Source of the DNA: a virus
Direction: 5' to 3' (one strand)
DNA length: 35,545 nt
Virus record (IMG/VR): IMGVR_UViG_3300036768_000965
Location: 1-35,545 of that record
The position numbers and the translations under genes are program-made. Shown here one piece after another: positions 1 through 35,545 of the stretch. The notes beneath the pieces are model-generated. The model searched no databases, was not told the origin of the DNA, and saw only the letters and a list, made by a program, of their open reading frames with translations. The stretch's first letter is position 1. Each line of letters opens with the position of its first letter.

Positions 1-112
1 TAAAAATTTTCTAAAAAATAAAATTTTCTTTATTCAATTTTCTTATTTTTAAAAATACCCCTGCAAAACTATTGTAAATAAAAGGCTTGCTGGCATTTTA
101 ATATAAAATTAG
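1..112 (+). repeat. Intergenic repeat block R1 (partial, cut by window edge)
   Basis: Left part of a repeat block that recurs at 12108, 16787, 27044 and 35340. It contains most of the AT-only spacer (1-57) and one 36-nt hairpin core at 58-93, which runs CCCCTGCAA, then about 20 nt, then TTGCTGG. Its partner core would lie left of the window. It matches 35431-35545 as a direct repeat with several differences, so the two ends are not identical terminal repeats. It sits upstream of the replication genes on the + strand. Confidence 0.9.
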
Positions 113-202
113 AACCTTAACACCTGAGCAAAGTAATATTAAAGGCACGGATAAAAACTAAAATTGTAGGTTTTTAGAAAAGAAACAAAAAAGAGGGGGA
201 CT

Positions 203-4910: not shown

Positions 4911-5597
4911 ATGCGTGTTTATTTAGATAAGTTAACACACAGGTATTATGATACTGAAGGCAATTTCTATAAAAGTGTTACTACTTTTATAAATGAATTG
5001 TTTCCAAAATTTGATGCTGATAAAATGGCAGGGTTTGTAGCTAAAAAAAGAGGTGTTTCTAAAAGTGAGGTTTTAGCAGAATGGGAAAACAAAACTAAAC
5101 AAGGGACAAACATACATGCACAATTAGAATCCGAAATATTCTTTCAAGGCGGGGCGTATTTTAAAAATACTTTTTTACCTTTATTAGAAAACGTAGAGGA
5201 ACTAAAAGAAAAAGAAGCTGGTTTATTAAATGAAGTAATAATATTTGATACTAAATTAAAATTAGCAGGAACAAGCGACCTTATATTAAAACATGAAAAC
5301 ACTGTTTACATAATAGATTTCAAGAGTAACCTAGATATGAGCACTTATTATAAAATATACCCTAATAAAACAAAAATAGAAGGAATAGAAAACTGTAAGC
5401 ACCATAGATATTCTTTACAACTAACTATTTATAAACATTTATTCAAGGCGTTATATAACGAAAGTATAAATATAAGATGCTTTATTTCTCCTGTTATTGA
5501 CCAGCTTGGAATAAACGATGTTTTAAATAATACAGAAGGTTTAATAGAAGCTAAAGATTTTTCAAATAAAATAGTTAATATTTTTAGTTATATATAA
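4911..5597 (+). CDS. PD-(D/E)XK (RecB/Cas4-like) nuclease
   Basis: A 228-residue single-domain nuclease of the RecB family. The expected residues occur in order: GTNIHAQLE with H69, a conserved acidic residue near E108, GTSD with D123, IIDFK with D136 and K138, and a LQLTIYK motif with Q170/Y174. Members act on DNA ends in recombination, repair or host DNA breakdown. No Cas4 iron-sulphur cysteine cluster is evident. The start at ATG 4911 has a strong AAGGAGG 4-5 nt upstream, and the gene follows the polymerase stop by 9 nt. Translational coupling with the polymerase and the reductase downstream is likely. Family placement is firm; the exact substrate is unknown. Confidence 0.85.
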   Translation: MRVYLDKLTHRYYDTEGNFYKSVTTFINELFPKFDADKMAGFVAKKRGVSKSEVLAEWENKTKQGTNIHAQLESEIFFQGGAYFKNTFLPLLENVEELKEKEAGLLNEVIIFDTKLKLAGTSDLILKHENTVYIIDFKSNLDMSTYYKIYPNKTKIEGIENCKHHRYSLQLTIYKHLFKALYNESINIRCFISPVIDQLGINDVLNNTEGLIEAKDFSNKIVNIFSYI

Positions 5598-12107: not shown

Positions 12108-12360
12108 ACTAATGCTGGGGTATTAATTTTATACTAAAAATGCCAGCAAGCCTTTTATTTACAATAGTTTTGCAGGGGTATTTTTAAAAATAAGAAAGTT
12201 GAATAAAGAAAATTTTATTTTTTAGAAAAATTTTATAATGTATTAAAAATTTTAGTGAAAAATAACCACCCAGCAAGCCTTTTATTTACAATAGTTTTGC
12301 AGGGGTGGTCTATTTTGCTTAACACTACTTAACATATGAATTATAAGTTTTTATTAAATA
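12108..12360 (-). repeat. Intergenic repeat block R2 (inverted, two cores)
   Basis: A complete block in reverse orientation relative to R1, R4 and R5. Cores lie at 12143-12178 and 12270-12305, with starts 127 bp apart and an AT-only spacer between them. The second core has an extended stem, ACCACCC pairing with GGGGTGGT. On its right flank is the TTAACA-N4-TTAACA promoter region. Positions 12270-12360 are identical, base for base, to 16829-16919. The block separates module A from module B. Confidence 0.92.
12319..12347 (+). promoter_or_regulatory. Promoter for module B with doubled TTAACA
   Basis: TTAACA at 12319-12324, a 17-bp spacer and TATAAG at 12342-12347 make a good sigma70-like promoter, five of six matches in each hexamer. 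A second TTAACA at 12329-12334 lies exactly 10 bp after the first, one helical turn, which suggests a protein-binding site overlapping the promoter. The same arrangement with the same bases lies upstream of the sheath gene. Confidence 0.75.
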
Positions 12361-15856: not shown

Positions 15857-16135
15857 ATGGTTATTATAGAAGTAAAATCAAATAAAATAGAAATTAAATT
15901 GAAAAAACATTTAATAGTTCTTGAATTTGATGAGCAAATAGAATTGTTTCATTTGCTTATAAATAAAATAAAAAAGAAAGTAGAAATTAAGGAACTAGAA
16001 GAGAATAAATTCTCTTTAGAATTAAAAGAACCTTATTTAACTTTTATATACAGATGGCTGAAGGGAATAGAAACGGGCGAGGTTTCTAAAACTGATATAA
16101 GAAAAAGTAAATTATTGCCTGTTATCATGAGTTAG
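15857..16135 (+). CDS. Hypothetical protein
   Basis: A 92-residue protein of alternating Lys/Glu/Ile-rich strands, with no membrane segment and no motif I recognise. It begins one nucleotide after the preceding stop and has no evident ribosome binding site, so translation is probably coupled. Its last 24 nt overlap the 3' end of the convergent minus-strand gene. It is the last gene of module B, so it would share the R2 promoter. Confidence 0.55.
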   Translation: MVIIEVKSNKIEIKLKKHLIVLEFDEQIELFHLLINKIKKKVEIKELEENKFSLELKEPYLTFIYRWLKGIETGEVSKTDIRKSKLLPVIMS

Positions 16136-16717
16136 GGATTGTTCTTTCAAATCTGCTAAGAAAAGTAATTCATTTTTCTCCTCTTCACTTAATACCTTCC
16201 ATAAAGGAAGCTTTTCTTTTATTTTTTGAATTTGGTCCACACTATCAGCTTCATTTATTTTAGTTTGTGTGTAAATAAAATGAGGGGAAAGCTCCCTCTT
16301 TGTTGTTGATTTTACTTCTTTTGTATCGTCAAGGTCCTGAGTAAAGAATTCAGACATTCCAAAAAAATTTATAACCGCCCCGACTAGTGCTCTTTTTTGT
16401 GCAAGTTTAATAGTCGTATTATGGTTTTCAAACTCTTGTATTGTTGCTATTCCGTATGACTCGCCAAGTCGTCCGCTATTCTCTTCTATAGTTGCTTTTA
16501 TAATATAAACATTATCATTATTGCTTATTAAACTATAACTAACTCCTTTAGTATTTATTAGGTGTAGAAACTTTTCAGCCCCTGCTTTTGTTAACACTAG
16601 TTTGTGAGTAGCTTCGCTCTTATAATAATCTATTTCTGCTAGTAATAAATTGTCTATTACATTTTTAATGTCTTTATAATATTTTACCACACTATCTAAA
16701 ATATCATTAGTGATCAT
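16112..16717 (-). CDS. Putative ssDNA-annealing/recombination protein
   Basis: A 201-residue protein transcribed against nearly all other genes. Two segments recall phage single-strand annealing proteins of the Rad52/DdrA-like sort: LTKAGAEKFLHLI at about 43-55, and KLAQKRALVGAVINFF with a following SEFFTQDLDD at about 105-131. Such proteins pair complementary single strands in phage recombination. The C-terminus is charged and probably flexible. GGAGGT precedes the ATG at 16717, and a strong promoter lies just upstream on the minus strand. The family assignment is from remembered motifs and is moderate at best; a structural role is not excluded. Confidence 0.45.
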   Translation of the reverse strand: MITNDILDSVVKYYKDIKNVIDNLLLAEIDYYKSEATHKLVLTKAGAEKFLHLINTKGVSYSLISNNDNVYIIKATIEENSGRLGESYGIATIQEFENHNTTIKLAQKRALVGAVINFFGMSEFFTQDLDDTKEVKSTTKRELSPHFIYTQTKINEADSVDQIQKIKEKLPLWKVLSEEEKNELLFLADLKEQSLTHDNRQ

Positions 16718-16748: not shown

Positions 16749-16777
16749 ATTATAATACAAAAATATAAAAAAGTCAA
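16749..16777 (-). promoter_or_regulatory. Strong sigma70 promoter for the minus-strand gene
   Basis: Read on the minus strand, TTGACT (16777-16772) is followed after exactly 17 bp by TATAAT (16754-16749). This is the best consensus promoter in the window. It starts just outside repeat block R3 and points to the gene at 16717. Together with the + promoter at 16878 it makes R3 a divergent control region. Confidence 0.8.
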
Positions 16778-16786
16778 TAGTACAAT

Positions 16787-16920
16787 AATTATGCTGGGGC
16801 TCTAAATTGATAATTTTATATTAAAATGCCAGCAAGCCTTTTATTTACAATAGTTTTGCAGGGGTGGTCTATTTTGCTTAACACTACTTAACATATGAAT
16901 TATAAGTTTTTATTAAATAT
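16787..16920 (-). repeat. Intergenic repeat block R3 (inverted, single hybrid core)
   Basis: This block has one core only (16829-16864). Its left flank (ATGCTGGGG, then TTAAAATGCCAGC) is that of the outer core of R2 and R4. Its right flank (GGGGTGGTCTATTTTGC) is that of the other core. The 127 bp that separate two cores elsewhere are missing. Positions 16829-16919 equal 12270-12360 exactly. It lies between divergent genes, so it is not needed there as a terminator. Confidence 0.9.
16878..16906 (+). promoter_or_regulatory. Promoter for the tail module with doubled TTAACA
   Basis: TTAACA at 16878-16883, a 17-bp spacer and TATAAG at 16901-16906, with a second TTAACA at 16888-16893. It is identical to the promoter before the fibre gene, so modules B and C should be co-regulated as late genes. 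The transcript would start about 60 nt before the sheath gene. Confidence 0.75.
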
Positions 16921-26491: not shown

Positions 26492-27031
26492 ATGAATTAC
26501 GAGCAAGAACTAAAAAATAAACAACTTTCTCAATTTAAAGAAGCCCCCTCTTTTAACAAGTGGTTAGAAATATATGCAAAACAACTTCAAGACATTGAAG
26601 ATGCGGGGCAGTCTATAATAGACCATTTACATTTAGCAGATGTCGGCGGAGTAGTTCTAGATAGGTTTGGTTATATATTAGGAACACCAAAAAGAACAGT
26701 TGGCATGAATGATAATACATACAGGGGGTTAAATTATGGGCAAATTTTATTGAATATTTATCAGGGTACTAGACAGGAACTATTACAATTCTTTAAACTT
26801 TTAGGTGCTACTAGTGTAATCTATAAAGAATATTATCCAGCAAAAGTAGAAATACAATACAATAACATTAGCCCAGCGGTATTATCCCCTACAACAATAA
26901 AAAATATGTTAATAAAAGCAACTCATCCTATAGGATGGGAAATTTCTTATTTTACAGACGCCCCTTTTGTATTTGAGGGCGATAGTACAGGCTTTGGTTT
27001 TGATGTTGGAGAATTAGGAACAAACTATTAA
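26492..27031 (+). CDS. Baseplate wedge/tail protein I-like (DUF2612-like)
   Basis: A 179-residue protein after J, the place of P2 gpI and of the DUF2612 family. The pattern VGGVVLDRFGYILGTPKRTVGMNDNTYRGLNY followed by ILLNIYQGTRQELLQFFKLLGA is typical. Such proteins link the wedge to the fibres. It is the last gene of module C. The tail fibre genes that usually follow are here in module B, about 10 kb upstream. Block R4 begins just after the stop. Confidence 0.75.
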   Translation: MNYEQELKNKQLSQFKEAPSFNKWLEIYAKQLQDIEDAGQSIIDHLHLADVGGVVLDRFGYILGTPKRTVGMNDNTYRGLNYGQILLNIYQGTRQELLQFFKLLGATSVIYKEYYPAKVEIQYNNISPAVLSPTTIKNMLIKATHPIGWEISYFTDAPFVFEGDSTGFGFDVGELGTNY

Positions 27032-27043
27032 ATAAATTGTTAC

Positions 27044-27268
27044 GAACTGTTAAGCAAAATAGACCACCCCTGCAAAACTATTGTGAATAGGCGTCTTGCA
27101 GGGTGCCTGTTTTTCACTAAAATTTTTAATACATTATAAAAATTTTCTAAAAAATAAAATTTTCTTTATTCAATTTTCTTATTTTTAAAAATACCCCTGC
27201 AAAACTATTGTAAATAAAAGGCTTGCTGGCATTTTTAGTATAAAATTAATACCCCAGCATAATTATTG
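27044..27268 (+). repeat. Intergenic repeat block R4 (two cores)
   Basis: A complete block in + orientation with cores at 27067-27102 and 27194-27229, 127 bp apart. It is the reverse complement of R2 with a few differences. The first core is the most symmetrical copy: CCCTGCAA pairs with TTGCAGGG, and CTATT pairs with AATAG inside the loop. It is followed by GCCTGTTTTT, so it could terminate module C transcription. The TTAACA motif on the left flank, read on the minus strand, has decayed to TTAACA-N4-GTAACA. Confidence 0.92.
27065..27117 (+). terminator. Possible rho-independent terminator within R4
   Basis: CACCCCTGCAA and TTGCAGGGTG form a stem with one bulged C and an inner CTATT/AATAG stem, followed by CCTGTTTTT. 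It lies about 35 nt after the last baseplate gene. The loop is long for a simple terminator, and related cores occur where no terminator is needed, so termination may be a side effect. Confidence 0.4.
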
Positions 27269-27294
27269 TTAAATATATTATTAGTAATTATTAA
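27266..27294 (+). promoter_or_regulatory. Candidate promoter for the head module
   Basis: TTGTTA at 27266-27271 and TATTAA at 27289-27294 with a 17-bp spacer, about 14 nt before the first head gene. Matches are weak (four or five of six). It lies just outside R4 on its second-core flank, the place where R3 carries the minus-strand promoter. Confidence 0.35.
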
Positions 27295-35308: not shown

Positions 35309-35339
35309 TATGAACGCCCGCTTTTATTAATTGTTAATG

Positions 35340-35545
35340 AATGTTAAGCAAAATAGACCACCCCTGCAAAACTATTGTGAATAGGCGTCTTGCTGGGTGC
35401 TTGTTTTTCACTAAATTTTTTAATACATTATAAAATTTTTCTAAAAAATAAAATTTTCTTTATTCAACTTTCTTATTTTTAAAAACACCCCTGCAAAACT
35501 ATTGTAAATAGGCGTCTTGCTGGCATTTTTAGTATAAAATTAATA
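35340..35545 (+). repeat. Intergenic repeat block R5 (two cores, to window end)
   Basis: A block in + orientation with cores at 35361-35396 and 35488-35523, again 127 bp apart. Both cores carry the loop variant GGCGTC, unlike the AAAGGC loop of R1, R2 and R3. Read on the minus strand, its left flank holds TTAACA-N4-TTAACA, as in R2 and R3. The block runs into the window edge. Positions 35431-35545 resemble 1-115. Confidence 0.92.

Follow-up and report, generated by a model that had tools for sequence, protein, structure and literature searches.

Within the window, the whole stretch of 35,545 bases of virus record IMGVR_UViG_3300036768_000965 (GC 30%), one intergenic repeat element carries a single copy of a 37-bp core, and three of its relatives on the same DNA carry two. 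This raises the question of whether the single-core element is a recombinant of two core types and, if so, how the exchange took place. Judged from its predicted genes, the source virus is an unclassified tailed phage, an orphan myophage with a contractile tail. The contig encodes replication-side proteins (primase/helicase, family A DNA polymerase, PD-(D/E)XK exonuclease, and ribonucleotide reductase) as well as virion and lysis proteins, i.e., terminase, portal, MuF-like head protein, tail fibres, endolysin, sheath, tail tube, tape measure, baseplate, head protease, and major capsid protein. In protein searches, the best full-length terminase matches were only 34–40% identical and those of the ribonucleotide reductase 28–32%. 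Upstream of the first gene, a 25-bp sequence (TTTTTTTATTTTGTAAAAAAGGAGG) stands in two tandem copies (210–259), and a third, diverged copy (386–410) lies at the start of that gene.

Five mutually related, hairpin-bearing elements, R1 to R5, were found between genes on the contig, where they occupy all five non-coding gaps of at least 200 bp (the next-largest gap is 193 bp). They measure 135–260 bp here, and a full element is laid out as a left flank, a 37-bp core, a 90-bp spacer, a second 37-bp core, and a right flank, with a core-to-core spacing of 127 bp in the two-core elements R2, R4, and R5. The core (CCAGCAAGCCTTTTATTTACAATAGTTTTGCAGGGGT), present once or twice per element, is imperfectly palindromic, keeps its centre conserved, and occurs in both orientations on the contig; the spacer adjoins the outer core in four of the five elements. 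The elements are as follows.

1–143, minus strand: R1, with the outer core (57–93) and 56 bp of spacer; its inner half is lost to the contig end.
12101–12360, plus strand: R2, with outer core 12143–12179, spacer 12180–12269, and inner core 12270–12306.
16785–16919, plus strand: R3, with one core (16829–16865).
27015–27271, minus strand: R4, a two-core element with outer core 27193–27229 and inner core 27066–27102.
35309–35545, minus strand: R5, a two-core element with outer core 35487–35523 and inner core 35360–35396, its left flank cut by the contig end.

Within their left half, the elements also hold a motif, TGC[AT]GGGG, that recurs in alternating orientation about 28–29 bp apart (12113, 16792, 27252, and in the cores); this array could be a set of protein-binding sites or of competing hairpin halves. 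We searched for the family elsewhere. Protein and DNA searches found no close relative of the phage, and none of the distant relatives reached by protein-based searches carries R-type elements. DNA patterns of the core gave zero matches among viral contigs and 84,980 species genomes, and blastn with R2 gave zero matches among phages and plasmids. A right-flank pattern matched two sequences (L048 and L049) over 18–20 bp each, as expected by chance, and neither has the element in common with the window. Rfam and tRNA scans of the contig returned nothing.

The single-core element falls into three parts.

16785–16828, plus strand: left flank of the outer type, made up of a TGCTGG half-hairpin and the outer left arm TTAAAATG, as aligned and tested against shuffled sequence.
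16829–16865, plus strand: the single 37-bp core, the interval that holds the exchange junction.
16866–16919, plus strand: right flank of the inner type, identical to 12307–12360.

An earlier note on this DNA had described R3 as joining the left flank of an outer core to the right flank of an inner core, and both the shuffle tests and a map of exact matches bear this out. None of 2000 shuffles reached the score of the R3 right flank against any of the three inner right flanks, whereas its similarity to the outer right flanks is at chance level (P about 0.33–0.36). The left flank behaves in the opposite manner: it is at chance level against the inner left flanks (P 0.54–0.80) and resembles the outer ones of R1 (0 of 2000 shuffles), R4 (P 0.004), and R2 (P 0.011), as well as that of R5 over 22 bp only (P 0.026). 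The exact match between 16829–16919 and 12270–12360, claimed in the same note, also holds; it is maximal, measures 91 bp, and extends 54 bp past the core on the inner side of R2. The note had likened both flanks to those of R2. This holds for the right flank; the left flank is instead closest to R1, with which R3 shares 55 bp exactly, core included (16811–16865 against 57–111 in reverse orientation). The start of R3, which the note put at 16787, is approximate, and the resemblance of the left flank sets in near 16785. The exchange must have fallen between 16828 and 16866 and is not placeable more finely than these 37 bp; over this interval, the candidate parental cores differ little or not at all. 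These alignments confirm, at the level of sequence, that R3 is a hybrid of an outer-type left half and an inner-type right half.

A metagenome contig could contain assembly errors, and a hybrid may be suspected of being an assembly chimera, joined over the identical core. Both ends of this contig fall inside R elements (R1 and R5), and its first 99 bases are identical to 27137–27235, the longest exact repeat in the window; this is the mark of a repeat that the assembler did not resolve, which is very likely what the contig end represents, and the genome is probably incomplete, its ends being assembly breaks. However, if the 99-base start reflects the word length of the assembler, as we infer, its words were longer than the 91-bp repeat shared by R2 and R3, and a false join there would be unlikely. 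Moreover, the identity stops at 16919 within non-coding DNA and gives way to unique sequence. We thus hold a chimeric origin of R3 to be very unlikely.

We then asked in which direction the change went. In the two-core elements, the outer and inner cores are each embedded centrally in a longer imperfect palindrome whose arms match each other (TAAAAATG and GTATTTTTA for the outer cores; AAAAATAACCAC and GTGGTCTATTTT for the inner core of R2), and the predicted RNA energies are about −10 to −13 kcal/mol for outer hairpins and about −14 to −20 kcal/mol for inner ones. When arms were exchanged over a constant core and the energies predicted again, the means were −12.3 kcal/mol for outer with outer arms, −16.5 kcal/mol for inner with inner arms, and −8.0 kcal/mol for an outer left with an inner right arm. 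The last combination is that of R3, whose two arms do not pair (−8.0 kcal/mol), while its left arm with an outer partner reaches −10.5 kcal/mol and its right arm with the inner left arm of R2 −20.3 kcal/mol. Relative to shuffled sequence, the inner hairpins of R2 (z −3.4 and −3.1 on the two strands) and R4 (−2.9 and −2.2) stand out, the outer hairpins are weakly better (−0.8 to −2.7 in sense, near 0 in antisense), and R3 is not better (+1.3 and +0.7). By predicted folding, the stem-loop is thus strong at inner cores, weak at outer cores, and lost in R3.

These folds bear on the reverse history, in which the single-core form is ancestral and the two-core elements arose by later duplication of the core. 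R3 is the only element with one core, and the change is not polarised by relatives. However, in a functional ancestor with a single core, the arms should match, and the unpaired arms of R3 stand against two self-matching hairpins in each two-core element. The spacer argues in the same direction: the similarity of its ends to the flanks did not go beyond chance when alignments were compared with shuffles (P 0.1–0.9). Tandem duplication of a single-core element is not supported, as the spacer neither starts like the right flank nor ends like the left flank; lacking any resemblance to a fusion of the two, it would be left unexplained by a simple duplication. Its place beside the outer core in four of the five elements also counts against this history. 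The earlier note had named this ancestry as the outcome that would overturn its reading; the mismatched arms and the flank-free spacer both speak against it, and we consider it unlikely. R3 was probably derived from a two-core form, although the small set of elements and the predicted nature of the RNA energies make this an argument and not proof.

The hairpins and flanks also suggest what the elements may do. Strong hairpins edged by A/T runs are predicted on either strand at the inner cores of R2 and R4, and both elements sit between operons that run in one direction. Since these hairpins stand between co-directional operons, the simplest role that can be inferred for them is that of transcription terminators, which remains a prediction from folding; a terminator scan that covers short loops only did not flag the element hairpins. 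The right flanks of R2 (12319–12347) and R3 (16878–16906) contain a promoter-like TTAACA-17-TATAAG, which matches the consensus at 10 of 12 positions as read from the sequence and faces the next gene, in the case of R3 the sheath gene. The promoter scan requires T at the last position and therefore did not list it. The motif occurs in R2 and R3 only, the corresponding stretch being divergent in R4 and R5. On the other side of R3, the promoter scan returned a second candidate.

16749–16777, minus strand: promoter-like TTGACT-17-TATAAT, facing the leftward gene.

R3 lies between divergent genes, with divergent predicted promoters on its two sides, a place where a terminator would not be needed. 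The loss of its hairpin would fit a relaxation of constraint once the exchange had happened.

How the halves came together can be approached through the core variants. An outer-type core (GCCTTTTATTT) is present in the outer cores of R1, R2, and R4, in R3, and in the inner core of R2, and an inner-type block (GACGCCTATT) in the inner cores of R4 and R5 and in the outer core of R5. Variants therefore cross between outer and inner flank types, R2 and R5 each being uniform internally and R4 having both, which is the pattern expected if cores convert one another; the sequences thus suggest gene conversion between cores. Such conversion might also account for the hybrid itself, if the inner half of R2 was copied onto the right half of R3, or the reverse, independently of the step in which the second core was lost, with a shared promoter function perhaps preserving the identity. 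The 91-bp identity of R2 and R3, from which R4 and R5 clearly diverge after TTAACA, agrees with this history, as does the outer-type sequence that the inner core of R2 shares with R3. Conversion alone, however, leaves the loss of spacer and core unexplained unless the partners were mispaired, in which case it becomes the explanation that we prefer. As a separate event, we regard it as possible but doubtful.

The explanation that we consider probable is that R1 to R5 belong to a single family of regulatory cassettes, which sit in the intergenic regions that separate the gene blocks of a myophage and recombine with one another by homology, and that R3 resulted from an exchange within the 37-bp core that they have in common. 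An outer core with an R1-like left flank would have been joined, within the core, to an inner core with an R2-like right flank; the spacer and one core (127 bp) would have been removed, and two non-matching hairpin halves would have remained. A 37-bp direct repeat with copies 127 bp apart is of a kind on which annealing, slippage, or RecA recombination ordinarily acts. By one route, the deletion would have taken place in one two-core element, through annealing or slippage between its direct repeats. By another, the outer core of R3 would have mispaired with the inner core of R2, and the R2 right flank would have been copied up to 16919; this route would account for the R1-like left half and the 91-bp identity with R2 in one event. 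With a left half like that of R1 and a right half identical to R2, R3 could as well stem from exchange between two elements as from deletion within one. The number of exchanges is uncertain with five elements only, and DNA and protein searches found no relative with a two-core R3, so the deletion lacks a before-and-after pair. Two proteins encoded on the contig may be relevant to homologous exchange.

4911–5597, plus strand: PD-(D/E)XK exonuclease, a candidate DNA-end resection enzyme (phrog_298, E 2.8e-21; Pfam PDDEXK_1 just under the cut-off).
16112–16717, minus strand: phrog_10048 protein beside R3, possibly a single-strand annealing protein (PHROG E 7e-12).

Pfam and NCBIfam searches with the second protein gave no match, and its structure model is of low confidence (pLDDT 48), too poor for a structure search. 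Its homologue in Geobacillus virus E2, which has an ExoX-like C-terminal piece, is encoded directly after a Gp157-like gene and before the replication genes; this setting would suit an annealing protein and is a lead only.

The earlier note had gone further and taken the cores as crossover points, by homologous or site-specific recombination. The first part stands insofar as the junction lies inside a core; the hybrid does not single the cores out as special sites, for a 37-bp repeat also recombines by homology or slippage. In a site-specific version, the cores would be recognition sites of a recombinase, encoded by the host or by a missing part of the phage, that deletes, inverts, or exchanges segments. 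The palindromic core with its conserved centre, its two orientations, and the position of the elements at block boundaries would all fit, and a contig incomplete at both ends could have lost the gene. Against this, the scan of the ORFs revealed no member of an integrase, resolvase, invertase, or transposase family, a statement qualified by the few ORFs without a match and by the incomplete genome; the 37-bp resolution of the junction points to no particular site; and exact matches of 91–99 bp far exceed a core, as homologous copying predicts. We regard site-specific recombination as improbable here. Our best reading is that these repeats exchange sequence among themselves, for which ordinary homologous recombination is the simplest mechanism.

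The order of the gene blocks may record further exchanges. We compared it with that of Clostridioides phage CD1801, an annotated myophage with a similar terminase, in which the genes run terminase, portal, capsid, XkdM-type tube, tape measure and baseplate genes, fibres, and endolysin. The window (8409–34817) instead reads terminase-portal-MuF, R2, fibres-endolysin, R3, sheath-to-baseplate, R4, protease-capsid-neck, and R5, i.e., a block order of 1-4-3-2 relative to CD1801, all in one direction, and each change of order coincides with an R element. Such a coincidence suggests a role of these elements in block shuffling, although the evidence is circumstantial, as operon borders are also the sites of terminators. 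A stronger version, to which we give very little credence, holds that the two-core elements form a dedicated module-shuffling system with paired hairpin sites at each block border, in which an unseen recombinase or an annealing protein (e.g., 16112–16717) would reorder, invert, or excise virion blocks and R3 would be a spent site.

Phage genomes are mosaics, and the sequences through which blocks were exchanged are usually erased. Here, one genome keeps five candidate exchange sequences at block borders, and R3 preserves an exchange as mismatched hairpin halves. Among the closest known counterparts are the PeSL (promoter early stem-loop) cassettes of T4-like phages, reportedly the subject of work by Arbiol in 2010 and Comeau in 2014. 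These promoter/stem-loop cassettes are said to mediate gene shuffling (PMC4503421). The two families are alike in being small, repeated, intergenic cassettes with stem-loops, predicted ones in the case of R1 to R5, and promoter-like sequence, and the shuffling of gene blocks by recombination through PeSL has its likeness in the location of R1 to R5 at block borders, in every gap of at least 200 bp, and in the recombination between copies that the R3 hybrid and the mixed core variants point to. They differ in that the elements described here have a two-core 37-bp palindrome of unrelated sequence, reside in a 35-kb non-T4 myophage, and carry the promoter-like part in R2 and R3 only, with roles that are predicted; no mini-circles or paired genomes were seen here.

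In the Campylobacter group II phages CP21 and CP220, similar repeats in direct and inverted orientation (RR1 to RR4) mark off modules of the genome. Related phages differ in the number of repeat units and, through inversion, in the orientation of modules, for which the authors invoke recombination or slippage between the repeats (PMC4546147). The position of repeats at module borders in both orientations is common to both systems. However, the Campylobacter regions are 1–2.9 kb long, with up to 18 units per arm, units of 72–86 bp, and a 13-bp core, AAACTTAAAGCAA (PMC4546147), whereas the elements here span 135–260 bp with one or two 37-bp cores, as read from a single genome; the 13-bp core is not part of the 37-bp core, and arrays of 72–86 bp units were not found. 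Lambdoid phages, in a passage of the same source, carry linker sequences at module borders whose short homologies are used for homologous exchange (PMC4546147). Short homology at module borders is again the likeness, but lambdoid linkers are shared between phages at matching positions, and here one sequence stands at five positions in one genome. Sites of the att, res, hix, or dif type differ in having a cognate recombinase beside them, and here none was recognised among the ORFs scanned. By analogy, R1 to R5 appear to work like the PeSL cassettes and the Campylobacter repeats. They open repeat-mediated block shuffling to tests in a small phage that is not T4-like. If ordinary homology is the true mechanism, they are one more case of a known process.
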